Assembly (NCBI GenBank): GCA_947561395.2
Contig: OX387184.1
Coordinates: 5,208,001 to 5,272,000, forward strand
DNA length: 64,000 nt
DNA from: Buxus sempervirens
Taxonomy: Eukaryota; Streptophyta; Magnoliopsida; Buxales; Buxaceae
Direction of reading: 5' to 3'
This document shows positions 13,801-63,810 of this stretch, in pieces. Under the pieces are notes generated by a model. It was not told the origin of the DNA. It searched no databases and was given only the letters and a program-made list of their open reading frames with translations. The translations under genes were made by a program, and so were the position numbers. How positions within the stretch are numbered: position 1 is the stretch's first letter; each line of letters starts with the position of its first letter.

Positions 13801-14377
13801 AGATCACCATCAAGCGGATGAGACCGCAGGAAGGATGGGTCAATATAAACGTGGATGGTGTGGCAGTGAGAAGTCAAGGAGTAGTTGCAATCGGGGGTGT
13901 AGCAAGGAACTCAGACGAAAAGGTGTTTTGGCGCTGTGGCAAGCCTAATAGGGGATGAGGACTCTTTAATGGCTGAGGCAATGGCTCTTCTTGAAGGACT
14001 TTGAATGGGGATGGCGTTAAGTTGCAGTAAGGTGATTGTTGAGAGCAACTCCAAGGTGGTGGTTGACTCCTTCCATAACTTTGGTGCTACTCCATGGAGA
14101 ATCAAGCATGTGATGGAGGAAGCGAGACACATGAGCGGCCTGTTCATAAGGTGTCAAATTGCCAAAATCTACCGTGAGGCCAACTGCGTTGCGGATGGAC
14201 TTGCATCCTTTGCTTTAAGTCAATTCGGATGCTTTTGGTTTTCAAATGTTCCGCAGTGTATTAATAAGCTATCATGGGAGGACTTTGTGGGTTGAACCTA
14301 GACTCGACTTGTTCTGGATTAATATATAAATTGAATATGTTCTCATAAAAAAAAATAAAAAATATTGCACGCATGTA

Positions 14378-28206: not shown

Positions 28207-30270
28207 ATGAAGACTCTCAAAGAGGGCCTAATACAACTTGCCCACACCATAAAAAAGGGTCTCGTTCCAACTGTTTTCACGTCCAATCAACTCATCCATC
28301 TCTGCTCCAAGCATGGCCTCCTGCATAGCGCTCGTAAGCTGTTTGACGCAATGCCTGAACGGAATGTTTTTACCTGGAATGCTATCATCTTGGCACATAT
28401 CAAGAAGCACGACTTGACACAAGCCCGATCCCTCTTTGATGCCACTCCTCACAAGGACTCTGTCACTTATAATTCCATGATCTCTGGATATTTAAGTACC
28501 AATGGCTTTGAAGCTGAAGCTATGGAACTCTTTGCTGAAATGCAAGCTACACGGACCCTGTTAGATGAGTTCACCCTGACAACTATGCTCAACTTGACGG
28601 CAAAGCTATTGCTTTTATCATGTGGAGAGCAGTTGCATTCTTTCATGGTGAAAACTGCTAATGATTCAACCAGGTTTTTTGTGAGCTCTTTGATTGACAT
28701 GTACTCAAAATGTGGTTGTTTTGGTGAGGCCTGTCAAGCGTTCAATGGATTGGGCATGATGTTGGATTCAGTTTCCAAGAATGCCATGGTTGCTGCTTAT
28801 TGTAGAGAAGGTGAGATGGATGCGGCTCTCAATCTATTTTGTACAGATCCGGGATTAAATGATACAGTGTCTTGGAATACATTAATCTCAGGCTACGCCC
28901 ATAATGGCTATGCGAAAGAGGCATTGGAGTTGTTTGTTTGTATGGCGGAGAATGGAATCCGATATAACGAGCACAGTTTCACTACTGTCTTGAGTGCTTG
29001 TTCGAGATTAAAGAGTTTGAAGCATGGAAAGGAAGTCCATGCTTTGGTTTTGAAGAATGGTTTAAGTTCAAATATGTTCATAAGCAGTGGAATTGTTGAT
29101 GTATACTGCAAGTCTGGCAATTTACAGTACGCAGAATTGGTTCATGGAGCCACTGGAACAGATAATGCTTACTCCATCACTTCGCTGATTGTAGGGCATT
29201 GCTCACAAGGAAACATGGCAGAAGCGCGGAGACTTTTTGATTCATTGAATTTTAAGAATTCTGTTGTCTGGACTGCTCTGTTTTCAGGGTATGTTAGATT
29301 GCAGCAGTGTGAAGCTGTTTTTGAACTTTTAAATGAGTTCAAGGTGAAAGAAGCTGTTGTTCCTGATGCTTTGATCCTTGTCAGTGTGCTTGGTGCCTGT
29401 GCAATACAAGCTGCTTTAGATCCTGGAAAACAGATTCATTCTTACATACTGAGAATGGGGATCGAGATCGAGTTAGGAGAGAAGTTGGGCAGTGCTATGG
29501 TTGATATGTATGCTAAATGTGGAGATATAAAATATGCAGAACGAATTTTCCAAAGAGTTGCATACAGAGATCAGATTCTTTACAATGCAATGATAGCCAG
29601 TTATGCGCATCACGGGTGTGAAAGCGAAGCTATTTTGCTGTACATGGAGATGTTGAATTGTGGAATTAAGCCCAGTGCAGTCACCTTCATTGCGCTTCTT
29701 TCTGCTTGCCGACATGCCGGATTAGTAGAAGCAGGGGAAATGTATTTTGATTCTATGACAAAGGACTACTCAATAGATCCCGAAATAGATCACTATTCAT
29801 GTATGATTGATCTGTATGGAAGAGCCAGTCAATATGAAAAGGTGGTGGCATTAATGAGAAAGATCCCAGTTGAGATGGATGCTGTAATCTGGGGATCGTG
29901 TCTGAATGCCTGCAGGATGAATGGGAATGTAGATTTAGCAACAATGGCAGAGGAGGAAATTTTGAAGATAGAAGGAGATAGTGCAACTCGATACGTGCAG
30001 TTAGCTAATGTGTATGCTGCAGAAGGAAAATGGAGTGAGATGGGGAGAATAAGGGGGAAGATGAGAGGGAAGGAAGTCAGAAAGTTTGGTGGTTGCAGTT
30101 GGCTTTATGTGGAAAATAGAGTAAATGTATTCACCTCTGGTGATAGGTCTCACTCAGAAGCAGAGGCTATTTATTTTGTATTAGACTGCTTGAATGTGCA
30201 GTTTGAAGGAGAAAAATCACTGTATACAGATACTAAGAGCCCTACCCATCTTTTATATGATTGTGGTTGA
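28207..30270 (+). CDS. Pentatricopeptide repeat protein, PLS class, E/E+ subgroup (687 aa)
   Basis: Intronless, as is usual for plant PPR genes. PPR repeats of 31-36 residues tile residues from about 20 to 610, for example FTSNQLIHLCSKHGLLHSAR, SVTYNSMISGYLS, TVSWNTLISGYAHNGYAKEA, LGSAMVDMYAKCGDIKYAER and SAVTFIALLSACRHAGLVEA. The L and S variants mark the PLS class. The C-terminus has an E domain (SATRYVQLANVYAAEGKWSE, GKEVRKFGGCSWLYVENRVN) and a short E+ part, with no DYW deaminase. Such proteins bind specific organellar RNAs, usually for C-to-U editing with a deaminase partner in trans. The sequence reads like the orthologue of Arabidopsis At3g18840, from memory. The start ATG at 28207 gives a short N-terminus without an obvious transit peptide. 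Confidence 0.92.
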   Translation: MKTLKEGLIQLAHTIKKGLVPTVFTSNQLIHLCSKHGLLHSARKLFDAMPERNVFTWNAIILAHIKKHDLTQARSLFDATPHKDSVTYNSMISGYLSTNGFEAEAMELFAEMQATRTLLDEFTLTTMLNLTAKLLLLSCGEQLHSFMVKTANDSTRFFVSSLIDMYSKCGCFGEACQAFNGLGMMLDSVSKNAMVAAYCREGEMDAALNLFCTDPGLNDTVSWNTLISGYAHNGYAKEALELFVCMAENGIRYNEHSFTTVLSACSRLKSLKHGKEVHALVLKNGLSSNMFISSGIVDVYCKSGNLQYAELVHGATGTDNAYSITSLIVGHCSQGNMAEARRLFDSLNFKNSVVWTALFSGYVRLQQCEAVFELLNEFKVKEAVVPDALILVSVLGACAIQAALDPGKQIHSYILRMGIEIELGEKLGSAMVDMYAKCGDIKYAERIFQRVAYRDQILYNAMIASYAHHGCESEAILLYMEMLNCGIKPSAVTFIALLSACRHAGLVEAGEMYFDSMTKDYSIDPEIDHYSCMIDLYGRASQYEKVVALMRKIPVEMDAVIWGSCLNACRMNGNVDLATMAEEEILKIEGDSATRYVQLANVYAAEGKWSEMGRIRGKMRGKEVRKFGGCSWLYVENRVNVFTSGDRSHSEAEAIYFVLDCLNVQFEGEKSLYTDTKSPTHLLYDCG

Positions 30271-31513: not shown

Positions 31514-34500
31514 CTACACTGTCTTCAAGACCCAGGCAGCGCCTCTAGAAATGCAGAGTTCACCTAAGACCTGCCAAGTGCAAAAAACAAATGAAAACAA
31601 GTACTGCTATTTGTAACTGGAACAGATATCAGTGAGCAGGATATGAAACTCAACTAACAAGTGGTTCATATCAATTACAAAGCTGATCAATGAAAAGCAG
31701 TCTTCAAATGGAATTTTTGATCACTTAAAAGGGGCATCATATTAGGCCTCCTCCTGAGTTCTAGCAGAATCCCAGTTCTCAAAAGGCATGCAAGATACAG
31801 CAATTCCTTTTACAATAGATGAAGCCTAGTAAGATTTCATGTTGAACTTCATTGCCATAAGCAAAAACTCCCAAGTATTCTTGCCTAAGAGCATCTGCTG
31901 GGGCATGTCCCAAGCATGTGATATTGCAAACCAGAACACCCGTACATTCATGTGTTCAGATTCTACAAGGTCCAACCAGATTATGACATAATAGTTTTTA
32001 TCAATCCAGAGCCCTTACAAGAGAAACTCTTGTATTCTGATTAAGAAATTTGTGTTTCAACTTTAGGCCATTCAGAGGGGCCCACAACCCAGTTGAAGCT
32101 CAGAATGATAGAAAAAGGAATGATTTTTGACAAAGTCAGAATATTCCACGGATGATAAGTTTCTTGATGCATGAATGAAACTGAATGCTATCATTGTGAT
32201 GGTATCGCATTCTAAAGTTTTAAGTGGCCCTATTATATTTCCCATAAAAGAGAGAGAAAGAGAAGAAAAACATGGTGACCTTGTTATATTCATTGGTAGT
32301 GATATCCCTTTTAAGTGAAATCTTGGCAGCTTCAACAATGTCTGCCTTCCGCAGTTTTGCATCAGGCTCCTTGGCACATAAAAGATTGATTACAACTTTC
32401 CTGCAATGGAAAAACCACAATTTAGTACAACAGGAAGAAATGCTCTGTAAGACAAAAATAGATCATGACACAAACAAAAATAGATGACGAATAACCTTAA
32501 TGGATCATATTCTGGATGCTCTGATGATGTCTTTGAAACATAAACACCATGGATATTTACTGCAACTTGACTTAAAGCTGCTTGGAGCACCTCTGGATGG
32601 CAATCATCAACACCATAGGCCGCAGATACTAAAACTCTAGGATCTGACTTTGGAATACTTGATTTTGAAATTGCCATATCCCGCAAACCTTGTTTAATTC
32701 GATCAAAGCTGTCAATATAATCACGCATCATGCTAATGTTAGAGCTTAAAAACTTCAAGAATCACATATGCACGAATTGTGCTGTAATGAAAATGGATGC
32801 TCTTCTAAGACTATTTCAAAAATAATTTATTTCCAAAAGAGGGGCAGCAGAATCAATGAAAACTTTGTAAAGTATATTTTACTTTTCTTCTTTCAAAAAG
32901 AGAAGTAATAGGAATATGTCAGAGAGAGAGAGAGAGAAGGGGGGAGGGAGGGAGGGAGGGCGGGGTACACATAAAGGGAAACAGCTTAGGTTTTGTGTTA
33001 TAATCCAACCCAGCGAGCTATTGTCTGCTTTGGGCCTAAGCTGGCATGGTTTTGTCCCCAAAAGGCGCCTCGCTAGTTAGAGTGTTCTCCCTAACTCTTA
33101 TACCTTTCTGAGCATTCATCCGTTTCCGATGTGGGATCAGGATGTCACATTTTGGCACTCAAATTTGCAATAGCAATCACATTTCTCCAACCAAACTACA
33201 AAACCCTCAAACGTGATGTTTTACTATCTCAATTCGATGTTCAATAATGGGAATAAAAGTTCTATAGGAATTGATTTGCTCTAGTTTTTGTATCGTCTGC
33301 GTTGATCCTAGGCAACCATAATTTGGTTCTCGCCACTGAAATTTGTAGCTGGCATTTTATATATTAAAATATTTTCCTAGTAGAAAAGGGAAAAAAGAAG
33401 ATGAAGAAGATACTTCAGCTTTGGAAACTAGACTGTCAAATTGGGTGAAGAGATCTCGAAAAAATCATCATGTTGATTGTGACATTGATCGAAGCAGTAT
33501 CTCAAACATGTCTTACTACCCATTCTGAATGGACTTATTAATGGACCAGTAAATAATTTAACAGTGATACTTAAAAACTATAAATTGAAAAGGCTTTTAA
33601 GTCTTGTTTTTAGAAGCAGAAAGCAACATGTACATGCAACTCATCAAGGAAAAGCAAAAAAAATAATTTACTGTGGAAACCTACCAGACTAAACCTTGGT
33701 TCAATGTCCCTTGTATATGGGTGGAGCTAGGGTGAGATGCAGGGGGGCCATGCCCCCTCATACCCAAGTTTCCTTTTCCTTTAAATGTTGTAAAGGTGTT
33801 GCGTCAAATCTGAACCAAGTCTGATTAGATGAATGATGGGCCTAAAGTCTAGAAATAAGAAATGTTTCTGGAAAATCTTTTGTTAGCTTATATTTTATTA
33901 AAAATCTTTGTTTTCATGATGGTTCATATAAACCTCGTATCATTTGAAACAGTAGTTAGGAGTCTCAATTATCCTTATACATCTATACATCAAAATTCAT
34001 AGGTTTGGTAGATACACAACAAAAAGGCTTTGCATGAATGTATTCTAGTAGTGGCATAATTAGGACAAGCTAGCTGAGTTTTGCCCAAGCCTGATCCCAC
34101 AACGTTATGAAGCAATTTTAAAAAACTGAGCAAAGTACAAAAATTAATCCTGACTGGGCTTATTTGGAGATTTAACAAACACAGTGGATTCAAATATCAC
34201 TATGGCAAAAAATTAAAAAAACCTTACCTGCAAATCTTGTGAATCTGGAAAAGTTTCTGCAGGGCCTTTAACAAAGCATCTTGAGTTTCACCAGAGCTGG
34301 CTTTTGTGCCAACGTTAAGTGCCCCATTTACACCTCTTGTCGCAACATGATCAGAATTGATAGAACTTCCATGTCTGAAACTCCTCATACCAGGTCCACT
34401 CTTTCCAGCACCATGGATAACATCTTTTATCCGCTTTTCAGAGCCTTCCCAAAGTTGCTCCTGTTCCCTCACTATGACTGGATTTTGCTTTATAAATGTC

Positions 34501-37500
34501 ACATCTGGAGGCTCTTTTAAGATCCAATCCTTGAAGGAAGGTCTTTCAAAAGCCAATTGATTGAGTATGCGGTTTGCATTTTCTCTGAGACCTTTTAAGT
34601 CATCTAATTGTGCATGCTTAATTATCCGACTCTTGCTAAACAGACAAAGAATGTAATCTCTAGCTAAAGCATCACCTCCTTGACACAGCAATGAACTTTT
34701 TGGAACCCACAGTCCTTGTACCAAATGAGCACACTGTCGAAGGACTCCCAGAACAGTTTCAACAGAATCATCAGGAGCAAGGTGCTTCAGAGCATTAAAT
34801 CGATGCAGTTGAGGTATCTATAAAGAGGAAATGTTCAATAAAAAAACATACACAACAATAAGGGGAGGTTTCAATTGTTCACATATTAAATAGGGAAATT
34901 TTTAACAAAAGATCATACATGAAAACCCACTCACTCAGGCAAAATGCCAAGAACTTGGTTATCTAACCCATACTTTTCATCCAAACATATAAAAAGGTAA
35001 ATTTTGGACCAAAAAATACGGGGACAATTTCAGATTTTCCATCTTCCTCTGGACGTTAGCAACTTAGCATTTCCGCATATGTATGAAGTTCTCAATGGTC
35101 TCAAGAACTAGGTTCACTACAAATTCGGCAAGAAAAGATCTAAACATCACACATATCTACCGGAATGTAAATCTTTTATGCTATAGTTGACCACAAGGAC
35201 AAGTAACACCACAGTAACAAAATAAAAACATGGGCTTCTTATCAGGATCTACCCAGTCAAACAATAGATCCCACCCAACAGTTTGCAGCTTATGCATTGG
35301 AGTGAAACAGATTAACCAGCATTGGTTCTGCATCAGGATCTCACATTTTCTTTGCTCTATCTCAAAAAAAAAGTGCATACAATTTTATACAATCTGTTAG
35401 AGGAAAAATGGTAATAAAGCAGATTATCATCAATGAAAAAAAGGAATAGCACATAATAGTGTGATTTAAATTCAAAAAATAAAATAAAAACTCATATAGG
35501 TAGACCAATAGACATAAATTAAAAATCTATTTTATTTTTGAATCCTTCTCAGTACATTATTAGACAAAAGTATTGGATAGATCAATAAGGAAATATTTAG
35601 AGCATGAAACTATTAGAATTGATAATCAGGATATCCCTTTAAGGAATAAATTCAGATATCTTGGATTAGTAGTACAAAAAGATAGATAAATTGATGAAGA
35701 TGTAGCACATAGGATTAAAGCTGGTTGTCTTAAGTGGATGAGGTGCTTCTAGGGTATTGTGTGATAAGCGTATTCCAATTAGTTTAAAGAGTAAGTTTTA
35801 TAAGACAGCAATTAGACCAACTATGTTGTATGGTATATAATGTTTGGCAACAAAGAAACATCAACAGGTTCAGAAGATGAGTGTTACCGAGGTCAGGATA
35901 TTAAGATGGATGTGTGAAAGAACTAAAAAAGACAAAGTAAGACATGAACATATTCAAAAGTAGTTAGGCATAACAGGCATTCAGGATGAAATTGAGGAGA
36001 GTCGCTTAAATTAGTTTGGACATGCAAGGCGAAGGAAGACCTAGAAATGCACTAGTAAGAAGGTGTGAGAGGATGTATATTTATGGTCCTAAGAGATCAG
36101 GAAAAGGACCTAAAGGGACATGGATGGAGTTAATAAAATAAGACTTACATAAATATAAACTAATTGAAGATATGATTTCTATAGAACGGATGGAGAGACA
36201 AGATTCGAGTCACCAACCCCAATTTGGCAGGAACTCGCTTATGTTGATGATGATGATGAAACTATGATGTGATTATACATAGTTACATACATGTATATAC
36301 ACACAAGCACAGAAATGCACAGATACACATACAGACAAAAACACACATAAAAACAATATTCAAAATTGATACAAAGACAGATTAGATATTAATTAATTTT
36401 TTTTCTGAAAAAAAATAAAGATAAAGGAAAAATGGATGGTTCTCTTGTTAATCGGAATAAATGTTTCTTTGTGGAGGAACGAGATATCAAGTTAATCTTG
36501 TGGAATATCCACCAAAAAGAAAATTCAATTGGAAATATTGGCAAATTCTTGCATACTCAAAGAAAATAAATAGTATGTGTGTAATAAGTGTGATCCCCAG
36601 ATGGAAAGGTAGATTGTGGGATCAAGTCGAACCAAGGTATTTATATAGTTTCTTCTTTTGTGTATGTGTGCGTGTGCAGATAAATGTACACACATAAATA
36701 CATTATATATATATATCCAGTCATGAATTGTCACTAATCCAAAAAGGAAAACACAGTTATAGTGTGTAATGAGAGGCTACAGACCTCACGAAGCTGTGTT
36801 TCTAATCGTTTTTCCAATGGCAGTGAAAGCAAGTACCTGAAAAAACATCCGCACAAAATTTAAACATGCTATAACCCAAAGTAATACAGAGTAACTACCA
36901 GTCAAATGATAAATAAAAAAAATATAAGACTGACAAAATAAAAACAGAAAGCTACTAAGTAGCAGCATAGAAAGAGCAGAAAATTGATCAAAGACAGCAA
37001 AGAACAACTTTAATAAAAAACTGAGCAATGATCACAAACACCTGGCACTCAGTTTCATGGTTAAATTCACAACGAACAGAGTAAAAGGAGAGGAAACCAA
37101 CAAAAAAAAAAGCAGAATTAGGGTTCTTGCTTTCCAATCCCACCCATCATTAAAATGCTAGCAAGCATCACAGAAAGCATCAAGATGCAACAGCATTACT
37201 TCTCAAAAGCTACTCAGATATCTACTTATTCTCTATACAGGCAATCACTCATCTTTTCTAAAATGTTTACCCAACATTCATTTTCCACCATTGCTTGAAC
37301 AAAGAGGACCAAAGGAATAGAACCAAATATTCAACCTCTGAAGAGAGTGGCCTAAACGAGTTCTTTTTTAAGAGTTACAGAGATAGTCTTGGCTTGTCAA
37401 ATGCCAAGATCCTAGAGGATCAGCTAAAAAGGGGGTTGGTTTCATGCAAGCTATGATATTATTTTACAAGGTGTTATGGGGGTTTTCTCTAAGAGCATAA

Positions 37501-40500: not shown

Positions 40501-43500
40501 ACAGATAGTTGAAATCAGACAACTAACTGTACTAGTCTGAACCCAGATTTAAAAGACAACACCATACAAAAGCGAAACAATATTTCTTAAAACAGAAATG
40601 ATCTAATTAGTTTTTTTTTAATGAATAATGAAACTTTCATTAGATCAAAAGGAGAGAGGAGCACCTCACAAGGAGTGAGAACACCCCAAAATACATAATA
40701 AAACCACAAAAAACCAAAAATAGAAGACTCTAAGGGTCCTCCAACATGATAAACTACATCAAAAAACCGTCACCAAAGCAAAATTTTACTAAACCACCCC
40801 AAACTACATATCGGTGAAAGACGTCCATTTCCTGATGATGTCCATAGATGTGTATGAATCAAAATCCTTCGGCCTTGAAGCCCAAAAAGCAGATAACCAT
40901 AACACCTGGTCTACCACACTAGACCTTCTCACCTTCTCGTCTTAAAAAATACACCTATTCCGCACCCTCCATAATGTTGCAAAAAAACATCCCCTGTAAA
41001 GTTTTCTCCCTAACCTACTGAATCCCAAAAATCGCCACTGAAAAGCTAACTCCCGTATGGTATAAGGAAGTACCCAAGAAACATTTCCCAAATACAATAA
41101 ATGCCTCCATACGTGATCAGCAACAGAGCATCTAAGCAGAAGATGATCCACCGATTCGGCCTCCTTCATACACATCGGGCATACCTGGGGAGACAAAGCT
41201 ATATGAGGCTGGTGATGCTGTAATACATCCAGTGTGTTAATCTTATAGTGCAAAATAGTCCAGACAAAAACTTTAATTTTAGAAGGAATGGCAGCTTTCC
41301 ACAAAAAGGAGATGGGAAAGGCCACCGAAGGGATATATGCTGATTTTGCCAAATGAGTGAAAAAGGAAGCAACAGTAAAACTATTACCAGAGTTAAGAGT
41401 CCAACCCCGCCTATCTGAAATGAAAGAATGGGATAATGATACCTCATTGAGATTATTCAAAAGATTTGCCAACTCATCTAGTTCTGCAGGATGGAGGTCA
41501 CATTTAAAATTCAGATTCCACTTGACTCCATGAGATGATGGAGAAAGAATCTCACAAACCAAAGGATCAGGCAACACACGAACTCTATAAAGCCTAGGGT
41601 ATAAAGAAGAAAGAACCCGACCCTTCCACCAAATATCAGACCAAAACCTGATGAGATTACATGCACGCAATTTCAATTGAACGAAAGGGAAGAAAGCTTC
41701 AGCAAGACGTAAGACTGCATTCCATGGACCATGCCTCCAACTTCGACCACCTGTTTTCACCTCTAATCCATTATGATGGATCCCATAAAAGTTTGCCATG
41801 ACCTCACACCATAATGTCTCCCTTTCCTCCCCAAACCGCCAAAGCCACTTGCCAAGTAATGCCTTATTCCGGGAACTGAGATTTCCTAAAGATAATCCTC
41901 CATCGTTCTTATGATGACTCCCCACTCTCCAATTCACAAGATGAAACCTTTTTTTCTCTCTCCCTTCCCACAGAAAATCACGATGTATTTTTTCAATTCT
42001 ACTTAACACTTTAGCTGGAGCCCTGAACAAAGACAAATAATAAGTCGGGATATTCTCTAAAGTTGATTTAATCAACGTAAGACGCCCTCCAATAGACAAA
42101 AACTGTCTTTTCCAATTACCCACTCTCCTAGACACCCTCTCCACTACCGGATCCCAAAAACTAAACAAGTTTGATCTCCCCCCCAACGGAAGGCCTAAAT
42201 ATTTCATCGGCAGACTTTGAAAATTACAACCTATACGAGACACAAATTCGTCCATCCTTTCCTCCCCAACGTTAATACCCGCCATACTACATTTTGACAC
42301 ATTCACACTCAACCCTGACATAATCTTGAAAACTTTCAAAACACATTGACACCAAAAGACATTCTCCATTTTGGCTTCTAATAGTAATAAAGTGTCATCT
42401 GCGAATTGTAAGTGAGAGATCTGATTTCCACTTCTGCCAATAGCAAAACCTTTAATTTTATCCATTTTTTCGCCCCAAATAAATAACCTACTTAAAACAT
42501 CACTCACCAAAGTGAACAGGAAAGGCGACAAGGGATCACCTTGCCTAAGCCCACGACTTGACGGAAAAAAAACCTCTAACTTGACCATTAAGAAGCAACG
42601 AAAATGAGACCTTATCCAAACACCCCTCCATCCACCTTCGCCAACGATCTCCAAAACCTTTCCAACTTAACACTGAATCAATAAAACTCCACTCAACCTT
42701 ATCATATGCTTTATCCAGATCAATTTTCCATATCAATCCCTGTTCCCCAGACCTCTTCTTGTCGTCCACACATTCGTTAGCAATAAGTACAGTGTCCAAA
42801 ATTTGTCTGCCCCCTACAAATGCACTTTGATATCTCGTAACAATCCCATCCATCACCTCTTTCAATCTCAAGGATAACAACTTGGCGATAATTTTGTAAA
42901 GACTGGTGGTAAGACTAATTGGCCTGAAACAGATAAAAGTTGCATTCATTGCCTTATTTATAACTCCACTATTATAGAATTCCTCAAACACCAGCATCAG
43001 ATCTTCTTTGACATTTGTCCAACACTCTCGAAAGAATGCTATGGAAAAACCGTCTGGCCCTGGAGCCTTATCCCTACCCAAATCTTTTATTGCTGCGTAG
43101 ATTTCCTCTAAAACAAAAGGTTTCTCCAGAGCTTCTTGTTGACTTGCTTCCAACTTAGGACCCTCTAAATCCTTTAAATCAAAGTTAAAAAGAGACTCAG
43201 ATGAATAAAGCCTAGAAAAATGATTAATCAATTTTTCCTTTCTCACTGAATTCCTCTCCATCTACTTTTAGGTGATTAATTGCATTTTCTTTCCGCCTCC
43301 CATTTGCTATTCGGTGAAAAAACTTAGTGTTTCCATCTCCCTCCTTTAACCATTTAACCCTTGCTTTTTTTCTCCAATTTATTTCGTCTAGCCTCAGAAC
43401 TGCTTCCAAATCTCCTAAAACAACACTTCGCTCTGTTCTTTCTTCCAGCGACAACTCCCTCACCTCTTCTTCTCTATCGAACCACTGAATTTTCTCCTGT

Positions 43501-49467: not shown

Positions 49468-50232
49468 AATCGAGGTTTCTACAGTTCAGAGATGATACTA
49501 ATAAGTTTAAAGAGAAACTCAATGGAGCCTTTGCCAAGGAACAAAAATAAGCACGTCAGTGCATAAGAATTCTCGTGTTTTGATTATCAGTGAGTTTCAG
49601 GTTAAACAAATAGACGCGTGTGCTCATCCGAACAGGCGATATTTGCCGTCTCGCACTGCCTCCGGTAGCGGGCACGCCGTATGACTTATTAATCTAAAAT
49701 AGGTTATAATTAGAAACAAATGGAGCTATAACTGTTCATCTCTTTCTTCCCTTACAGATGAAAACGATTGGATGCCGCAGCGGAGCAATTCGATGGAGAT
49801 TCCGGCGGAACGTTCGTTCACAACAGAAGAAGCCTAGGGTTTCTCTAGTTTCGATCACCTGAAAAAACGAGCGAGTATTTTCGGTTTCATCTTATAGAAT
49901 AGGAGGAGGAGGGGAAGGGACCAGGCACTGAAAGGGAAAACGGAGGAAAAAATTGGAAACTAGAGAGAGGAAACGAACGCTTTGTTGAATTGTTTATGTA
50001 AAACGTGCCGCGGCCCCACAACCGTGCGGAAGCACGGTACCTGCATTGTTCTCGTGCCATGTCGTGCTGAGCACTATGGGCCGTGGGCTCAGGAAATCAC
50101 AAGCTAGCTGACATTTCGGCCAGCACGGGCACGGCAAGCCCGACCAGCCCAAGCGTGCCGAGTATGCCAAGCCACGTGCCCCTATGTTTGGGCCGTTAAT
50201 GGCCAACTTGTGTGCTCGGTGCTACCCCGCAC
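49468..50232. other. RPC5 upstream region and GC-rich repeat remnant
   Basis: 49468-49990 is the RPC5 leader and promoter; no TATA box is assigned. 49995-50232 is GC-rich with repeated GGCACG/CGTGCC and GGCCCGT-type motifs, resembling the ends of common plant hAT MITEs, but no clean inverted termini were found. The Mutator element inserted at its right edge. Confidence 0.4.
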
Positions 50233-50632
50233 GACCCCATATCAGCTGGAGCGGGACGCTGGAAGATCGGCTGGAGCTTTCGCCGATTTCCGCCACGCAT
50301 CCCACTCCAGCTCATGACTAAAATGGAGAGTCTCCGTTAACAGTCACAGGCCAAATTAACGGAGACTCTCCGTTACGCCCATCTTCCCCAAAAACGAAAT
50401 CCCCAAAATCAAAACCTTCCGCTCCCGCCAGAAACCCAAATCCCAAATCAAGCGAAAATCAAAATCCCTAAGATCTGCTTGCATACTTCGACCTCGGGGA
50501 TGATGGAAGTAGGCAAACCTTAACGAAAGCACCTTGCACTGCAAGTACTGAACAACAAGCTCTCTTCGTCTGTGGGATGCAATCAGAAGCCAGGAGGCAA
50601 TCTGGTAAGTCCATGTTTAATCATATACTATC
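50233..50632 (+). repeat. Left terminal inverted repeat of the Mutator element
   Basis: It pairs with 58986-59371 in inverted orientation along its length. Shared blocks include GGGACGCTGGAAGATCGGCT, AACGGAGACTCTCCGTTA, CAGGAGGCAATCTGGTAA and CCATGTTTAATCA. Small indels and substitutions separate the arms. Confidence 0.88.
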
Positions 50633-51465
50633 TCTGATTCGATTTGACAAATCTCTTCAACTTCTTTGCTTTTTCATTAATCTTTTCTAGATTTGCCCTT
50701 TTTCGTTTTTCCTTGATTCTTGAACTTTAAAATCTGGTACTAAAGAAGATATAATGTCCCAATTCCATAATATAATTGTTTTGAAATGAGTCTGGAAGAT
50801 CTTGCTGTCTTCTTAAGTGAAAGGATTGATAGACCTTGATTGATTATTGAACATCTTTCAGTCATTTTTAGCTCGCTCAAACTATTTTTTTCCCTGTTCC
50901 CTACAGTAAAAGTACTGGCTTAGATACTCTCCCATAGTCCCATCAATCAGTGCATCTTCTTCGGCCATCAAATTAAGGGATGCACCTGAGATTTGGCATA
51001 TGGTACAATGAGAATATGGTTTTTCAGGTTCCACATTTGGAATGAAGAGATTGGGTATCACCAGTTAGTCAACTGATAATGAATCATAAAGTAACCCATC
51101 ATCAGCTGTGATTACTGATTTTGGACATCTTTGAATCCATTTTGATGAGTGGGGTTCAAGACCATTAGGAAACATCTGTGGATATTATGCTTAATGGAGT
51201 AGTGGTTATTGTTCCATGTGTCCAGATGTTTGTTGTGGCCATCACTTGTGCTAGAAAAGTACTCAAGCATGACTCCTTTGGTGAGTCGTTGCAAATTGAC
51301 AAAAATGTATTACACTTGAACTGAAAGTTTCATATAAAGTACAAGTTTACTCAACATTTTCATATTTCAAAACTATGATTCTTAATTTATGATTGGTTGT
51401 TCCTAGTCAAGACAAGAAAATTTTTCAGCTATTGAACTTAAGTTTCCGTTCAATATTCATTGCAG

Positions 51466-53390
51466 CTTGTAATGCCAAAAAAATTGGGTTGGAGGTGGCT
51501 ACTTGCACTGTCTTCTGTACCAACATCATTTCTGCTGTTCTTTTATGGTTTTACACCAAAGTCACCGAGGTACATTTGCTTGAAAGGTAGAACAGTTGAT
51601 GCACTAAACATTTTGGAAAAGATAGCCAAAATGAACCAAAAAGAACTGCCTTCTGGCATGCTTGTTTCTGATAATATAGTTGAGTCATATACTCCATCAG
51701 AAGATACTTGTTTAATATCACCAGAAGGAAACGGAGCTACATCACCTGGGAGTGTAGATTCCAAAACAGGAGAAGCCACTTCAATTTTTACGCTACTGTC
51801 ACCAAAATTAATCTGATCAACTCTTCTCCTATGGCTGGTATTCTTTGGAAATTCATTTGCATATTATGGCCTTGTGATGCTGACCTCTGAATTGAGCAGT
51901 GGCAATAATAGATGCAATCCAACTGCCATGTATGTAGAAAAATCCCAGGATGTTATCCGCTATAAGGATGTTTTTATCACTACTTTTGCAGGTATGTTCA
52001 TGTATATATGTACAATTTATTGTATCATGAAGAACTTATTCACACTTTGATCTAACCAAATTATTCCTTAAACCCTAAACAAGATTAACATATAACTTCG
52101 ATGTATTGCAGAATTTCCCAGGCTTCTTATAGCAGCAGCAACTGTAGACAGAATTGTTCGCAAGCTTTCAATGAGTTGTTGTTTCTTTTTATGTTGCGTT
52201 TTCCTTCTCCCGCTGTTATTTCATCAGCCTGAGGGTTTAACAACAGGTCTTCTTTTCGGAGCACGCATATGCATAATGGCAACCTTCACAATTATCTTTA
52301 TATATGCTCCTGAAGTAAGTCACGGGTGCATAGCTCTTCATGAAAGGCTACTATTTTTTACTATATTATCGTCCTTTTGATTATTATAAAGATACATAAT
52401 TAAGGAAACATATTTTTCATAAAACTTCTATGAAACTGGTATTTTTAACATTAAAGGCCAAGGTCTTTCTGGTGGTTGCATCCTAAATTTTGTTTAGAAT
52501 TTTGTGCATGAACATCATTTAGTCATGAAAGTGGGACACCCTGGCTTGTGGACAACCATAGCTAGCAGAGCCTTTTACTACGTTTTGCTCATTTCTTTTT
52601 TTCCCTTTCATTACGGAGATTAGCTAGTCGAGAAGACCTAGATCTGTACTTGCTTACAATGTAATGTATTTTATAAGTTATCTAAGCCCAGAAAATAAAA
52701 CTGTTATCTCCTTTTTTGACTTTACTATTTAGGGGAATCTTTTATATTTTCTGCCAATTCTTTTTTAGTGCTTTTTTTTAATGCTTTTTGTTAAATCTCG
52801 TTCTTTTGAACAAGCATTTATTTTGCACAATAGATCAAAATAGGGTTGCTACTTTCCACACAGAAATAGAAGCAGTTTTACTTTTGATTATACCTTAGTA
52901 AATGAGTTTCCAGACTTTAGCATCAACTTTAGAAAATTTGACACACAATTTTAGGAGATGATCCATAATGTTTAAAACTATATTATAAGCCATCACAGGT
53001 TTCTTTTTTTTTTTCTTTTTCTTTTTTTCTTTTTTTTTTTCTTATCTTGTTGACTTCTGCAAGACCATGTACTCATCCAAAATGACATTCAGAGTTCAGG
53101 GGAAAGTGATTGATGATTATGTGTTTTACTTCCTTGCTAGATATACCCAACCTCGATTAGGACGACTGGTGTTGGGATTGGGAGCTCAGTGGGAAGAATT
53201 GGTGGAATGGTTTGTCCTCTTGTAGCAGTGGGATTAGTGCATGGTTGCCATCAAACTGCAGCCATTGTTTTATTCGAGATTGTGATCTTTTTTTCTGGCA
53301 TATGTGTTTATCTTTTTCCCGATTGAAACCAAGGGCTGTGAATTGAGCAACACTGTGTCTAACAGAAAACAAGCTGTTCCAGCATTTTGA
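51466..53390 (+). pseudogene. NiaP-type (OCT7-like) MFS transporter, captured C-terminal half
   Basis: Three exon-like segments with intact splice sites encode the second half of a major-facilitator transporter: 51466-51991 (LGWRWLLALSSVPTSFLLFF, FTPKSPRYICLKGRTVDALN), 52112-52314 (EFPRLLIAAATVDRIVRKLS, YAPE) and 53141-53390 (IYPTSIRTTGVGIGSSVGRI, PLVAVGLVHGCHQTAAIVLF). The sequence closely resembles plant NiaP, a nicotinate/organic cation transporter (Arabidopsis At3g13050), from memory. The N-terminal six helices are missing. A TGA at 51814-51816 replaces what should be an arginine codon, and one extra T in the run near 53312 shifts the frame before the expected FPIET. It is a dead fragment carried by the Mutator element, oriented inward from the left terminus. 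Confidence 0.85.
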
Positions 53391-53728
53391 GATTGGGATC
53401 TTCTTCGACAGAGAGCTGATTGCAATCTTGTGCTCCTTTGCTGCTCGTCATCGAATTCTGCTGTACATGGTTCTCCCCACTTAAGATAGTTTTCTTTCTG
53501 TTGTTAGTTTTCCATTTTGTTTCTAATAAACATGTAGGTTATCTATCAGATGATGCAGTGTTTTCCAGCTACACCAAATATGATATTCCATTTTCTTTTG
53601 CTGAAAAATTGAAGGTGATTTTGGATAGAAATGCAGCAGAAGCCTTTCTCCAAAAGTTGTCTTCTCTGTTGTATTCATTTCCAACTTACATTTTCCAAGC
53701 CAACATGATCTACTTCTCACACAAAATC

Positions 53729-55026
53729 CAAGTCAGCATTAGGGTATAACACTGCTAACAAACGTGCGTACAACCCAAAATAGCATGGGGTACAACCCAA
53801 GTCAACATAGGATACAACACCGCTAACAGACGTGGGTACAACCCAAGGTAGCATGGGGTACAACCCTCTTAGCAACGGGTACAACCCAAGTTAGCATAAG
53901 GTACAACACCGCTAACAGACGTGGGTACAACCCAAAATAGTATGGGGTACAACCCTCTTAGCAACGGATACAACCCAAGTCAGCATAGGGTACAACACCA
54001 CTAACAGACGTGGGTACAACCCAAAATAGCATGGGGTACAACCCTCTTAGCAACGGGTACAACCCAAGTCAGCATAGGGTACAACACCGCTAACAAACGT
54101 GGGTACAACCCAAAATAGCATGGGGTACAACCTTCTTAGCAACGGATACAACCCAAGTCAGCATAGGGTACAACACCGCTAACAGACGTAGGTACAATCC
54201 AAGGTAGCATGGGGTACAACCCTCTTAGCAACGGGTACAACCCAAGTCAGCATAGGGTACAACATTGCTAACAGACGTGGGTACAACCCAAGGTAGCATG
54301 GGGTACAACCCTCTTAGCAACGGGTACAACCCAAGTCAGAATAGGGTACAACCCTCTAAACCATGTGTTAGTGGTGTTGTACCCTACGTTGACTTGAGTT
54401 GTACCCGTTGGTAAGAGGGTTGTACCCCATGTTACCTTGGGTTGTACCCACGTCTGTTAGCGGTGTTGTACCCTATGCTGACTTGGGTTGTACCCGTTGC
54501 TAAGAAGGTTGTACCACATGCTACCTTGGATTGTACCCACGTTTGTTAGTGGTATTGTACCTTATGCTGACTTGGGTTGTATCCGTTGCTCAGAGAGTTG
54601 TACCCCATGCTATTTTGGGTTGTACTCACGTTTGTTAGCGGTGTTGTACCCTATGCTAACTTCGGTTGTACCCGTTGCTAAGAGGGTTGTACCCCATGCT
54701 ATTTTGGGTTGTTCCCACGTCTGTTAGTGGTGTTGTACCCTATGCTGACTTGGGTTGTATCCGTTGCTAAAAGGGTTGTACCCCATACTATTTTGGGTTG
54801 TACCCACGTCCGTTAGCGGTGTTGTACCCTATGCTAACTTGGGTTGTACCCGTTGCTAAGAGGGTTATACCCCATGCTACCTTGGGTTGTACCCACGTCT
54901 GTTAGCGGTGTTATACCCTATGCTGACTTGAGTTGTATCCGTTGTTAAGAGGGTTGTACCCCATGCTATTTTGGGTTGTACGCACGTTTATTAGCGGTGT
55001 TGTACCCTAATGCTGACTTGGGTTGT
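53729..55026. repeat. Inverted duplication of a seven-unit GGGTACAAC satellite array
   Basis: The left arm (53729 to about 54356) holds seven tandem units of about 89 bp. The right arm (about 54357-55026) holds seven units in reverse orientation. Each full unit is a tetramer of 21-24-bp monomers that all start GGGTACAAC: one continuing ACCGCTAACAGACGT, one CCAAGGTAGCATG or CCAAAATAGCATG, one CCTCTTAGCAAC and one CCAAGTCAGCATA. Unit-specific variants occur at mirror positions in the two arms: CATTAGGG plus AACGTGCGTAC in the outermost units, AATAGTATGG in the third, ACCACTAAC in the fourth, TACAATCCAAGG in the sixth. The array therefore existed first and was then duplicated in inverted orientation. 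The first left unit lacks one monomer. The centre lies near CTCTAAACCATG at 54353-54364. Confidence 0.92.
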
Positions 55027-55586
55027 TAATGATGATATATTATTATTACGAACAAGTCCATTTCCTTAATTTTCACTACCTATATCCGATCAGTGTGAAT
55101 GGATTAAGAACAATAAAGAGATAAAATTTTCCTGTCAGTGGAAGCTACCTATCCATATTTCTAATATTAAGCAAGGAATTGAAACTTAAATTAACAAAAG
55201 AAGTGGTACGTACATGTGAAGGAGAACCAAAACATGGATCCATTGAGAACCAAAGGTAAATATTGAAAAACCTATGAAACAAAACATGATCCATTGAGAA
55301 CCAAAAATTAGATATTTCTCTACAGTATGTCCTTTCTTTCTAACGTTCAACTACACCCTGTATTAACAATTAAACGTCATCTCTGATCAACAATCACATT
55401 CATACAAACTCATCCACCGCTACGGAGCCACATAATATCCACAAACCAATCATAGTTTCCTCTCTCCCTTGAACAACAAAGGTCATATACAGGACCACAA
55501 AGTAAAAGAGGAGAAGCAACAAAAAAACAACACCGACATATTCCTCAAAACTATTTGACACTCAACCTCTAAGCATACCCAAGGCA

Positions 55587-56206
55587 TCAATTCTCGACAC
55601 TCCCATCATTGAACTTTAACCCGCTTGCGGTACCTAGAACCCCAAAACCACTGCAGTACAATGACCTGTTAAAACAAGTTTACATAAACAGTTCAGGTTG
55701 ACTTTTTAAAAAACTTGCCTATGATTAGATTTGTATAGAATGCCACTTACCATGTTGATACCAGCACGGATCTGCCAAGCTTGAACAAATATGAATTGTT
55801 TGCATGAGGTAGTGAGGTAATCCGGTCAATTCCTCCCCATTCTGAAGTCACAAAACATTGAGAAGGTCATCCAATAAAGCTACAGTTAGCAATAGAAACT
55901 CTCAATTTAAATAATTGTCTTATATCCTTGTCTTGTACCTTCATTTCTCCCAATAAGAGAACCAATTGATTCGGTGACTCCACTATCAGATTGAACAATG
56001 AGGTCTGAAATGAGCTTATCGTGAAAGTACTTAATATTATCCTACAAAAAGAAACGTAGTGTATATATTTAAGCTAAAGAATGTTCGGCAAGACAAATAA
56101 AACTAAGTGAACATCAACCATGGTCTTTACTTGTGTAAATTCTGTTGTCAATGATGCTCCATCCCAAAATTCCATGAACTTTATCAAAAAGGCACCGCAA
56201 TCAATG
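55587..56206 (-). pseudogene. Ulp1-like SUMO protease (C48), C-terminal fragment in the Mutator element
   Basis: Four exon-like segments with GT-AG borders and continuous phase: 56131-56206, 55939-56041, 55751-55841, 55587-55665. The first encodes IDCGAFLIKFMEFWDGASLT, matching the catalytic-cysteine block (DCG.F..K.ME) of Ulp1 proteases. The second has DNIKYFHDKLISDLIVQ, as expected downstream of it. The last two (EWGGIDRITSLPHAN, then FGVLGTASGLKFNDG and a stop) are not recognised. The catalytic His and Asp upstream are missing, so it cannot be an active protease. Ulp1 genes are known cargo of plant Mutator elements (Kaonashi/KI types), so this may be ancestral element coding, not a host capture. 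Confidence 0.6.
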
Positions 56207-56951
56207 CTATAAAAACGTAGTGTATATATTTTTTGGTTCTCTTTTCTATATTGGAATCCATATCAAAAACTATCTGGATAACATTGGAAATCAACATTAA
56301 TAAGAAGCCTGTATAGACCTGACAGTATCTTGAAGCTACTCTTTTGTCTTCATCAATGCTAAGAATCTCTCTTTCTTCTCTGTTTTTCCTTTTATTGAAG
56401 TCAATTGAAGTTATAAAAGATAAAATATTATCAATTACATTGAAAAAGACCATTATTTTGCCAGAAAATAAAGTTTGATACAAACAAATAAAACCATCAC
56501 AGCATCATGTTTTAATCTAAGAAACAATGCCATTAGCTTTTCCAAAAGAAATTATAACCTAAGTGGCGAGACAAGAAAAATCAAAAAGAAAGAAAATCAA
56601 AGATCCAACATAAAAACAGAAAATTGGAAAAAAAACAAGTCTCATTTAGAAAGTTAATAATAATGGTGATTGAAAGTCAAATACAAAGTGATTATGAAAT
56701 GCGAAAACAGTCAAAAACATCACAAATGGCAATCTCAAGGTATTTGTCTATCGATCATCTTCTAGAACAACGTTTAAGCAAGCAAGTATACATCTCATTA
56801 GTTTAGACAGTAAAAGAAGCATCAATCAATAATATAACAATTATTGGGCATGAAATGATGGGATCAATGAGTCCCCACACTCCGAATTTTAAGTGCATGT
56901 GACAAGTCATAATGTAATGCTTAAAATCTGGCTAGGGAAGAAGTCATTAAC

Positions 56952-58566
56952 CTGAAGAATACTGAGAGCAAGGACAAAGATTCCAATACCTCTGTGAGTC
57001 GACACTTTAGCATGCATTTTATCATAGAGGAGCTTTCCAGCCACCACAGCAGCAAGGCCAATGAGAAAACCTACAAACTGAATAAATGTATGAAGATAAT
57101 ACCACAGAGGATCCCGGTGTCTATAGTATCTAGCAATGATTGAACCAGATGGAAGGAGAATCCCCCATCCAATCAAAGCCAGTACGCCATGGTTCTTCTT
57201 CATCTTGTTAATGGCTGGGAAGGTCTGAAATGCAGAAGCTGTGAAAGAACATTTTCAGTAATTGTCCTTTGTGCAAGAACAATATTATACACCATTTGAT
57301 TTTATCATAGAAGTAAATTATTTCAAATACATAATAAAAATTGATGAAGAGACAATGTTTAGATAGAAGTTTCTTAGATAAAAAATGCATATGTAACCAG
57401 TAATAACAACTTCCCAGGTTATATTACAATAATATAAAATTCCTGTTAAATTCACCCAAATAAATTATCTCAAAAAAATATAATTAATGATTTATATAGA
57501 AAAAATGTAAAAGAAAATAAATCATAAATATGTTGAAGACAAAGATGTTCAAGACAAAGGGAGGAACTCTTGCACTCATAACATAAGGCCAGAGATATTT
57601 TATTTCCACAAGACTTTGTAATATTAGAATAAGGTACAATAAGATAAAATCCTAAAGAAATTTTCCAAATTTAGGTATGGGATCCTACGAAATATATGGA
57701 GTAAAAGTCATAATGCCGTTCCCATGAGATTGGAAATTTTCTGCCTCTAGCTTAACATAATACCAGTAAAAGGTAAAGGTGGACAAATAAAAAAGAAGAA
57801 TCCAATTGTAACAACAAACTATATGTATACTCAATTGACCAGTACATTTGTAAAGTTGTCACAGTATGCACAGTTTGGACACTTAATTCCCCTGCATATA
57901 AAGAAGAAATAAGCCCTCATAGTGTGGAAAAATCAAGAAGATTTTAGAGGATGATATTTTACTAAATATACTAGAAGGGAAAGCAGTCCCCATTCCAAAA
58001 TAACCAAGACTGGATACATACTATCTTGTATAAAAAAACCACAGGCCTGGTCAAGTTCTCTTCATTTTGGGCATCAATATTGTGTTAATAATACCTATGA
58101 ACTCTCTTAAAGATGTATCTAGCACATATTGCCCCAATGATGGCCATCTTTTCACCTCAAATAAAATAAACAAAATGGAGACGCTCCAGCCGATCTTATC
58201 TTCTTATGTTGTTAATGACCAAAAAATGAAGATGTTTCTAGCTTCATATTCTAAATGTCTTCATTCCCAAAGCCCAATTTCCTTTAGAAATTTCAACAAA
58301 CACATGATATGCAAGCTGTTTCAACAATACAAGATCAACTCAAAAAATTAAACACGCAAAACTTCAGAAAATTTTACATAATTAATGACGAATTTTCCTA
58401 GAGGCATATGATTGGAAAGCAACGAAGTCGAAAAAAAAAGAAACAAAAATGACAAATAAAAATTTACCTCATAAGTTGAATGTACAACCCTGTGAGCTTG
58501 TTGATAAACAAAAGGTAGAGATAATGCAACCAATACAAAAATATGCAAACACAGCACGTATTCCAT
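56952..58566 (-). pseudogene. Cytochrome b561-domain protein, captured 5' exons
   Basis: Exon 58468-58566 encodes a signal-peptide-like start (MEYVLCLHIFVLVALSLPFV) of 33 codons in phase 0. Exon 56952-57224 (91 codons, phase 0) starts TFPAINKMKKNHGVLALIGW and continues GILLPSGSIIARYYRHRDPL, WYYLHTFIQFVGFLIGLAA and STHRGIGIFVLALSILQ. This is the b561 core with heme-ligand candidates in KNHG, YYLH and THRG. The fourth helix with the YHHW-type histidine is missing, so the transmembrane electron-transfer domain is incomplete. Both exons are free of stops. A canonical donor follows at 56951, but the next visible acceptor is in the Ulp1-like fragment, where phase 0 entry meets a stop after one codon. 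It is oriented inward from the right terminus of the Mutator element. Confidence 0.75.
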
Positions 58567-58985
58567 TTGATGTTCATGGCTACCATTAGTTTTAATGATT
58601 TTCCCGTTCTTTTTTTTGGCCCCTTTTGTTGCTTCTTTAAAGTGAAGAATCTGATGGTGGTTATACCTGTGAGCCCAATTTATATATTAAACAGAATAAT
58701 TTTATCATGATAAGGGGATATATCAGATAATGCATTAACTACATAGTTTGTTAAAATCATTGGATTAAATGGGAATTTGGTCGAAGAAATCCTTATGGAA
58801 TGGTTGTCTTTTTTTTTCTGAAGTATAGAACGCAAAAGAAAGTCCAAGTTTGAAAGCCAAAGCAATTGAGAGATGTTGGGGAAATATTCTTCACCACCGT
58901 GGGATGAGGAATGGGAAATGGCGGATAGTATTTGATTAATCACCGTTTCAAGTTAGAAAATGAAACACGAAAACTAGCTAGTAAA

Positions 58986-59371
58986 GATAGTATTTGATTA
59001 AACATGGAGTTACCAGATTGCCTCCTGGCTTCCGATTGCATCAACAGACGAAGAGAGCTTGTTGTTCAATACTTGTAGCGCAAGGTGTTTTCATTAAGGG
59101 TTGCCTGCTTCTATCATCCCCAAGGTCGAAATCTGCAAGCACGATCTGGGGATTTTGATTTTCGTTCGATTTAGGATTTGGGTTTCTGGCGGGAGTGGGA
59201 GGTTTATATTTTGGGGAAGATAAGCGTAACGGAGACGTCTCCGTTAATTGGAGGGGACGTTCGTTAACGGAGACTCTCCGTTTTTTTCAAATGTTGGAGT
59301 GGGACGCGTGGCGGAAATCGGCGGAAGCTCCAGCCGATCTTCCAGCGTCCCGCTCCAGCTGATGTGAGGTC
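58986..59371 (-). repeat. Right terminal inverted repeat of the Mutator element
   Basis: It is the inverted partner of 50233-50632. An extra AACGGAGACGTCTCCGTT palindrome near 59229 shows local divergence from the left arm. Confidence 0.88.
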
Positions 59372-59380
59372 ACCCCGCAC

Positions 59381-60704
59381 GTAGGCATGCGACTTATTTA
59401 ATATTTATTTATTTTTTGGTAAAAAAAAAAAAGGGACTTTTAAAGCCTTGTCTGCCGATTACTTTTACCATTTGTACAAGAATATAAGATAAATTTTTAT
59501 AATATTTAGAAGAAATACCTCCTATATTGTTTAGCAACCATAATGGACCTAATTGAAATATGATTTTTTTTATAATATAGTTCAATCATAATTGAAATAT
59601 GATTGAACCAATGTTTTATTCATAGTTTGGGTTCGGTGTTTCATTTTGGAACTCGGGATATCTGGACCAGCTTGCACACACACCATGATTATTAATCCCT
59701 GAGGGATTATCAGGCCAAAGACCTTGGGATAGCCCCAAAGAATTGATAACACCTAATTGGTTCAGTTTTGGTTAAAAAAGGGTTCAGATTGAATTAGTTT
59801 GATTCATTTCACAGTTTAGGTGGCTAATAAATTGAATTGAACCAAAAAACCGAACTATATTATATAATAATATATATACGAAAACTAAATTTTGTAGCGA
59901 TCAAATTTATGTTCTTTTATAGCAATCACTTTCCACCATTGATGTGTGAATTGCTTGTGAAAGGTGCAAATAAGCTTTCAGTTTTTCATTTCGGTTTACG
60001 GGTTAATCAAATAATTTTGATTCGACTTTCAATTTAGAATCAGTTTGGTATGGCTTTCAGTTTTAATCAACATAATTCGTTTTAGTTTAGATTTGGCACA
60101 AAACCTAAATTAAACCGACCAAATTATACCCCTAATTGAAGCTATAAATGAAAAATACTTCTCGCACAACAGATATGAGTAAAACAAGAAAATCTTTTGC
60201 CAACACGTTTTCATGAGTATACTAATCAAACATCACTACTACAAAATGATTCTCCATGTAATGTAATAAATTTTGGAAGAATGAAATAAATGAAATCTAA
60301 TAGTGCATTGTCAGAATTAACTATGTACATAAAAGCCCCTAACTACAATTATTAATATTAGGTAAAGAAACACATGGATTCTTTTGATGTTTTGGTTTGG
60401 TGGAAGCATATCCATAGGAAGGTTTTAAGATTTCTTAACAGATCCTGGAAGCTTAACCTGCAGCTGCGCAGCATCGGCTGAGAGAGACCTTATAAGGCAG
60501 AAATCTCAAAACAGGTTTATCAGGAGGATTGAAGTATACCTCTTACAACAAGAGTGCCCTCATTGTAGCCTGGCTCTAAATATCAGGCATAGAGGAATAA
60601 GAGGATTCTCAAAGTCATGATGTCGTGAAATGTTGCTACAAGATAAAAAGGACACTACATAATAAAATTACATGGAAGGAACAAAAAGAAGCCATTCAAA
60701 ATTT
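59381..60704. other. Intergenic to the right of the Mutator element, 3' flank of the DUF4091-type gene
   Basis: No gene is seen. 59740-60125 is rich in GGTTTAGTTT/AAACCGAAC-type motifs, with a right edge ending GACCAAATTATACCCCTA. It resembles a decayed hAT MITE, but no matching left end or duplication was found. 60200-60704 is presumably 3' UTR and flank of the next gene on the minus strand. Confidence 0.4.
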
Positions 60705-62829: not shown

Positions 62830-63810
62830 CAGTAGCGATCATGGCTTTCTTCTTTTTACTTGATTTTACTTTGTTAAGACATTCTGAAGCCATATGACCA
62901 TACTTTCCACATTTATAACATTGAATCTCTTTTGACTTAGTTATAGTACTTTCTTTGTATTAATTTTTCTTGTCAAAAGAGTATCAATTCTAGTTGATTC
63001 TTCCTCTTCTCTTAAAGAATTTAAAATTTTTTTTTGCTAATAAGGTAGTTTGTTCTTCTTCATCTAGTTCTTGTTCTGATTCAGGTTCAGATTCTTTGAT
63101 TTGTTCATTTTTGAACTAAAGGATTTAAGACCAATTGACTTTTCCTTTAAAGAATAAAAGTGGAGTTCATATGTTTGAAAGGACCCTACAAGCTCATCAA
63201 TTTTCATGCTATCTCGGTCCCTACATGCCTCAATTGTAGTTACTTTCGAGGCAAACCTATTAGGAGGAGATCTTAAGATTTTCCTACAGATTCTATCTTC
63301 TGGTATCCTCTCACCACGTCCCCACATACTGATGACAATGTCATTAAGACAGCTATAGAAGTCCACAAAGGACTCACTTCCCACCATCCTAATGTTAAAT
63401 TTGGTGGTCAGAAGTTGAAGTTTTGACCTTCTAAAAAGAGAAGTTCCTTCATGGGTCATTACAAGAAAGTCCTTAGCTTCCTTAGCTGATCTACATGAAC
63501 AAATTCTTTTGAACTCATCAAGTGAAATCGCATAAGTAATGGCATTAAGTGATTTTGAGTTGGCCACGTTCTGGGCCTTCTGAGTATCAGCCCAAAGTTT
63601 GTAATTTAATTCTTCTATTCTTTTAATTCCATGTTTGTCAATGATTTCTATGGCTGGGGATGTCCATCCACTTAAAACACTTCGCCAGGAAGCTTCATCT
63701 CAAGCTTTGAGAAATATTTTCATCCTATAATTCCAATAGGCAAAGTTGTTTCCAGGAAAGTCTAGAAACAAAGAACCCATCTTTAGGCATATTTAGGTGC
63801 TTTTCCAAAA
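62830..63810 (-). pseudogene. Ty1/copia gag (UBN2-type) with zinc knuckle
   Basis: On the minus strand, gag begins near 63805. After frame breaks it reads NFAYWNYRMKIFLKA, SGWTSPAIEIIDKHG and ELNYKLWADTQKAQNVANSK. The longest open frame is 63064-63567, with SCRSAKEAKDFLVMTHEGTS and LLTTKFNIRMVGSESFVDFY. A CCHC knuckle CYKCGKYGHMASEC lies at 62879-62920. This is the capsid and nucleocapsid region of a copia element whose pol is absent; coding fades near 62830. At least one stop and two frame changes are present. Confidence 0.8.

Follow-up and report, generated by a model that had tools for sequence, protein, structure and literature searches.

The window, a stretch of 64,000 nt from Buxus sempervirens, contains a Mutator-like element (MULE) of 9,139 bp, which is bounded by terminal inverted repeats (TIRs) and flanked on both sides by the target duplication ACCCCGCAC (9/9 match). 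Its features are collected in Table 1; loci elsewhere in the genome that carry the same array are designated by L numbers. The TIRs of about 400 bp align with 341 identities, 41 mismatches and 24 gap positions. Together with the 9-bp duplication they bear out an earlier note on this DNA, which had placed the array inside a Mutator element.

Table 1. Features of the MULE and of its array (window coordinates).
Feature	Position	Strand	Evidence
Left target-site duplication ACCCCGCAC, 9 bp	50224..50232		Identical 9-mer outside both TIRs
Left TIR of the MULE	50233..50633	+	Alignment with right TIR
Captured transporter-like gene piece	51442..53323	+	Pfam Sugar_tr and weak MFS_1
38-nt flank common to other array loci	53686..53723	+	Matches in L012, L022, L016 and L017
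Left arm of array	53725..54365	+	Seven units, the first without one D monomer
Asymmetric centre	54352..54384		Common to 8 other two-armed loci; 0-2 substitutions in 33 against the typed core
Right arm of array	54366..55026	-	Seven units, order and orientation reversed
Family flank, U side	55027..56215	-	84-97% matches close to the array at many loci
Captured fragment of a possibly cytochrome b561-like gene	56910..58686	-	Sub-cut-off PF03188
Right TIR	58985..59371	-	Inverted-repeat match to left TIR
Right target-site duplication, 9 bp	59372..59380		Identical to left 9-mer

In the transporter-like piece, Pfam identified Sugar_tr at 51442-51813 (3.5e-9) and, under its cut-off, MFS_1 at 53141-53323 (0.0072). 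A copy of 53420-53685 with 96% identity lies on another contig, at C11:488151-488416, and is a putative donor; three further copies are weaker or shorter. The 38-nt flank is 94.7% identical to its counterpart in L012, about 40 nt from the array of that locus; it recurs in L022 (94.7%) and L016 (84.7%), there 0.9-1.9 kb away from the array, and was recognised by eye close to the array of L017. To the right of the array, no convincing Pfam match was obtained for 55027..56215, where we read putative exon-like minus-strand frames directed at the array. The string DCGAFLIKFMEFW on this U side may resemble an Ulp1-like protease, but Pfam, the Protein Data Bank and a protein search gave such a reading no support, and it was rejected. 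PF03188 matched at 56910-57254 (E=0.0008; 20.1 bits, under the curated 23), and 58351-58686 gave no Pfam match. A scan of 20 of the 62 open frames listed for the element revealed no transposase, and the element looks non-autonomous. Nothing in 50200-59400 reached the Rfam gathering threshold, one frame read through the array had no predicted-protein relatives, and an exact 32-base array string did not occur in the viral and prokaryotic contigs.

Elsewhere in the window, an endonuclease/exonuclease-type piece as in LINEs (7911-8612) is followed by LINE-like ORFs (10767-13958), and remnants of a LINE-type reverse transcriptase lie at 40942-43261 on the minus strand. An unbroken PPR frame of 693 residues is located at 28189-30270 (nearest among the matches listed: Tetracentron sinense, 74%, which points to a probable eudicot beyond the core groups), an RPC5-like frame at 34224-34817 on the minus strand, and a Copia-type gag piece at 63064-63699.

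The array extends over 53725-55026 (previously given as 53729..55026) and consists of two arms of seven 89-bp units facing head to head, with end pieces beyond the seven units in either arm. Each unit contains four monomers of 21-24 bp (B24+C22+D21+A22 = 89 bp), headed by GGGTACAAC or by a sequence close to it. The window contains 39 exact copies of GGGTACAAC, all of them within the array, against 0.25 in shuffles. Tandem Repeats Finder detected a period of 89 bp on either side of the join (53781-54359 and 54366-55026), and an inverted-repeat search returned arms of 572 nt, 94% complementary, with a spacer of 23 nt. When one arm was locally aligned with the reverse complement of the other across the join, 621 of 660 aligned positions were identical and 39 mismatched. 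Two single-base gaps lie close to the centre, and a single gap of 21 bp reflects the loss of about one D monomer from the outermost left unit. These three analyses agree with the seven mirrored tetrameric units per arm described in the earlier note, and the unit-specific markers named there do sit at mirror positions.

The seven mirror unit pairs differ at 32 sites in total, which is the unique best among all 5,040 pairings (mean over all 51.7). Taken one by one, the units pair less perfectly: L1-L5 find their best right-arm partner in the mirror unit, L6 and L7 their second best, and among left-arm partners the mirror unit ranks first for R2-R6, second for R1 and third for R7. Mirror partners share a non-consensus base at 15 unit positions, although several of these variants are present in more than one unit. 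The two innermost pairs are more divergent than the outer five (15/178 against 17/424 sites, p 0.044). When polarised by the consensus, 24 of the 32 private changes in the array are C>T or G>A. Over 53742-55007, the heads of monomer A alternate between GGG and GGA through several units in succession, and both arms show the same order, which hints at a 178-bp dimer.

A search of the 676 Mb genome of the same plant, as the earlier note had proposed, gave at least 130 array matches (the best 40 of 128 candidates scored), and the array recurred at 37 other loci examined. Of these 37, 18 are two-armed, every one with a plus arm followed by a minus arm as in the window, and the other 19 have a single arm or a single arm plus a stub. 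Arms comprise between 2 and 19 unit hits and differ in number within a locus. The asymmetric centre, with 0-2 substitutions in its 33 positions, is common to the window and eight others of the 19 two-armed loci, and it is present with an apparent indel in the one-armed L021; it was not seen in the other 10 two-armed loci. Hence the inversion was inherited by at least those nine loci and was not made in the window element. The head-to-head copying proposed earlier is therefore retained as regards the two mirror arms, but not as an event private to this element. Given the ten loci without the shared centre, a second inversion event is possible. The array appears to be the shared central part of a dispersed Mutator-type family, beyond a single palindrome.

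TIRs of the window element's type were found on both sides of 7 of the 19 two-armed loci (window, L009, L013, L014, L016, L017 and L018) and on one side of five (L011, L012, L015, L019 and L025), and the TIR evidence at L026 is one 74-nt match of 82%. They were not seen at L010, L020, L023, L024, L027 and L028 (6/19) in a search that scored the best 40 of 90 candidates and covered about 2 kb of flank outside 17 loci. Among the seven two-armed elements in which both ends were read, four have 9/9 duplications (window, L013, L014 and L017), L013 and L014 after a 3- or 2-nt shift at one end; L009 has 8/9 and L018 7/9 (read by eye), and L016 has 6/9 at best, with 7/9 in the one-armed L031. The MULE transposase domain PF10551 lies inside L013 and L016 on the strand directed at the array (the best 150 of 1,051 candidates scored). 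L013 is 21.9 kb long, and its transposase frame of 813 residues is open and stop-free. The family thus combines TIRs, a target duplication of about 9 bp and a transposase with PF10551, as MULEs do. Two further TIR pairs, C9:20607436-20624068 and C12:14703152-14723053, showed no array match among the best 40 of 128 candidates.

The family also includes short elements of about 0.8-0.9 kb, in which a TIR match of about 180 bp is followed by one arm with about six units, by the other arm reduced to a stub, and by a TIR match of about 78 bp. Among those testable at both ends, 8 of 10 have 9/9 duplications, L039 has 8/9 and L029 is out of register. Eight short elements are 97.4-98.6% identical to L033, and two more, beyond the 37 loci, also bear the array. 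Every one of the nine short TIR pairs that the TIR search listed bears the array (9/9), so its presence does not merely follow from array-based searching. The shortest derivatives seen have thus retained TIRs and array. Two local arrangements were also recorded: at L009:7036-7058 a short array-bearing MULE starts about 21 bp past the end of the sister copy of the window element, and at L036:3129-4702 two short array-bearing MULEs lie side by side with their arrays oppositely oriented.

The halves on either side of the array were then compared between loci. Nine strict half classes were obtained at thresholds of at least 500 nt and at least 93% identity, with the shared piece no more than 60 nt from the array, and these gave 34 half-pairs. 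Two-armed loci account for 21, and in 9 of those the partner halves share less than 150 nt within 1.8 kb. Because halves recur with unrelated partners, the array behaves like an exchange joint. Against this count the 12 of 21 half-pairs that retain related partners, and the window/L009 pair, whose discordance is confined to the 1.8 kb beside the array. Differing halves could also result from gene capture or deletion beside the array rather than from exchange. Element E018 illustrates the pattern: it matches the right half of the window element over 4.3 kb at 96%, from the TIR to the array edge, and the left half in TIR stretches only (161 nt at 80% plus 56 nt at the inner TIR end), and beyond its array it carries 78 and 104 nt of the window right flank as two short pieces. 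We labelled as T the halves related to the side of L013 and L016 that bears the transposase, and as U those sharing parts of window 55049-56215; both the labels and the half exchange itself are inferred. By matches, L012, L014, L015, L016, L017, L023, L025 and L009 would be T-array-U and L018 would be U-array-U, as L011 and L019 probably are. The left side of the window element retains 38 nt of U-type flank.

Mirror register holds for units 1-6 of the window (0.953; mean 0.920). The arrays of the window and its sister L009 showed no clear register, though their shared outer halves are 96.5-96.7% alike. A further 13 two-armed loci had enough units for this comparison; in only 4 did the best offset coincide with the outer or centre register, and there it was at most 0.010 above the mean; L016 has a strong register (0.944 vs 0.886) at a different offset. 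The window arms differ by 6 transversions in 628 sites, and the halves shared by the window and E009 by 57 in 6,150; arm transitions per site are 2.2-fold those in the flanks, with transversions equal. The equal transversion distances place the origin of the mirror state at about the time of the window-E009 split. The two arrays lack clear collinearity, so one has probably been rebuilt after the split, and such rebuilding would fit repair or conversion within the array.

The monomer head is the better conserved part of the repeat. Across 253 units outside short elements, head variability was 0.048 and tail variability 0.127 in a profile built from five window units, so that some bias is possible. 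The contrast holds separately in G/C (p 0.019) and in A/T columns (p 0.028), and the least variable 9-nt windows begin at -1 to +1 of the head. It was not significant in the 13 window units alone (p 0.10) or in a divergent subfamily of 84 units (head 0.081, tail 0.109, p 0.16). According to passages of PMC5735166, VANC proteins of Arabidopsis bind a nine-base motif in tandem repeats of non-coding MULE regions. The dense short motif in non-coding MULE tandem repeats is likewise found here, and a VANC protein of the family is not: the VANC domain DUF1985 gave three sub-threshold hits among the best 150 of 205 candidates scored, none of them in array elements.

Based on these sequence comparisons, we lean, with confidence somewhat above even, toward the array being the central non-coding domain of a TIR-type MULE family, with an inherited inversion, a function as exchange joint and a likely role as protein platform. 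Judged from its members, the ancestral order would be TIR, transposase gene, head-to-head array, second gene directed at the array, and TIR. The inversion would predate the spread of the family and may have arisen by a copying error in an already tandem array, for instance by snap-back or template switching in break repair. A break in the array could be repaired from its own arm or from another element, which would both keep mirror units alike within an element and join halves of different elements. Most likely the array would serve in addition as a dense binding platform for an element-encoded protein, as the well conserved 9-bp head and the TIRs plus array of the shortest derivatives suggest. 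Counting against this reading are the two-armed loci without the shared centre or without a TIR, the imperfect duplications of L016 (6/9) and L018 (7/9), the divergent subfamily and the weak register at other two-armed loci. More tentatively, and perhaps at odds of the less favourable kind, the palindromic array of 9-bp motifs may both recruit an element-encoded protein (an anti-silencing factor or the transposase) and act as a built-in exchange joint that swaps halves and shuffles captured genes; exchange in the array would then even yield like-halved elements (L018, and probably L011, L019 and the window).

Other explanations were weighed against this one. The array might be a passive, functionless satellite that changes size by slippage and unequal exchange and is carried along by mobile elements. 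The variable and unequal arms agree with this, as do the array order not retained between sister elements and the private changes in the heads of the window array (11/32 by hand count, about 13 expected). The lower variability of heads than of tails family-wide, in both base classes, and the retention of the array by short derivatives that lost all else speak against it, and we regard it as a possible but less probable account. Alternatively, read-through would give a 0.6-kb hairpin whose small RNAs silence the family, as proposed for Mu killer of maize in parts of PMC3440606, which offer a precedent. The predicted fold has 615 of 651 possible pairs (-1190 kcal/mol), and the prevalence of C>T and G>A among the private changes, with the 2.2-fold transitions, is as expected of methylated DNA. 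However, the array is more G+C-rich (0.478 vs 0.355), the transition/transversion ratio alone is not significantly different (p 0.15), and methylation can occur without a hairpin. As the predicted hairpin contains neither TIR nor transposase sequence, it could act on array-bearing copies only. A role as hairpin source is hence rather unlikely.

Two more candidates were rejected. A foldback transposon nested in an unrelated MULE would explain the inverted arms of tandem subrepeats, and both window arms do stop at the same monomer position; but target duplication at the array edges was not above chance, array flanks are common to several loci, and the same MULE TIRs lie outside the array elsewhere, which makes it very improbable. 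Near-perfect palindromes are also a known type of assembly artefact, arising for example from a read folded back at a missed adapter. Here the arms are about 6% divergent, the flanks are unrelated and non-palindromic, and the same centre occurs at eight other sites of the genome, so we give an artefact practically no credence.

If the preferred reading of a central domain with an exchange joint holds, a fixed joint inside gene-capturing plant transposons would give them a route to recombine their cargo, and the idea that motif arrays are targeted by transposon-encoded factors would extend to TIR MULEs outside Arabidopsis and to both orientations. The origin of satellite-like arrays also becomes testable on dozens of copies in one genome.

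The earlier note knew of no described element with such a structure, and this is too broad: passages of PMC4079207 and PMC3169594 describe inverted arrays of tandem subrepeats in the foldback elements Tetris of Drosophila virilis and Tm1 of root-knot nematodes. These resemble the present family in their inverted tandem-repeat arms, 8-10 bp target duplications, variable repeat number and a Mutator affinity, suggested or shown. Their arrays are terminal, within long terminal inverted repeats. In contrast, the window element ends in ordinary MULE TIRs that lie kilobases off its central array, with unrelated gene-bearing halves in between; short derivatives with a TIR adjoining the array come closer to the foldback layout. 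A literature search, judged by titles and the openings of abstracts in mostly non-subscription journals, gave no plant MULE with a central palindromic array. The novelty would lie in a MULE family built round a palindrome with partner-changing halves, more than in a single palindrome.

Like the Pack-MULEs, the window element bears host-gene-like pieces between its TIRs; one contains the transporter domain, and the 96% copy of 53420-53685 would be a candidate donor. A conserved central palindromic array is not a described feature in passages of PMC13317346. Mu killer is likewise a Mutator-connected inverted duplication with a proposed hairpin RNA, but according to parts of PMC3440606 it duplicates transposase and TIR sequence, neither of which the window array holds. 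The VANDAL MULEs and their VANC targets, in passages of PMC5735166 and PMC10398659, share with our family a dense nine-base motif in non-coding tandem repeats that are gained and lost between copies. VANC21 motifs are arrayed in one orientation there, whereas two arms face each other here, and the likeness concerns the manner of work only, as the VANC domain was not found in array elements. The chimeric copies of Galileo, as described in parts of PMC3573991, also contain pieces of different subfamilies and point to exchange between repeat-rich copies. Galileo belongs to the P superfamily, and its chimeras join terminal repeats and central regions, whereas in this MULE family the halves meet at the central array.
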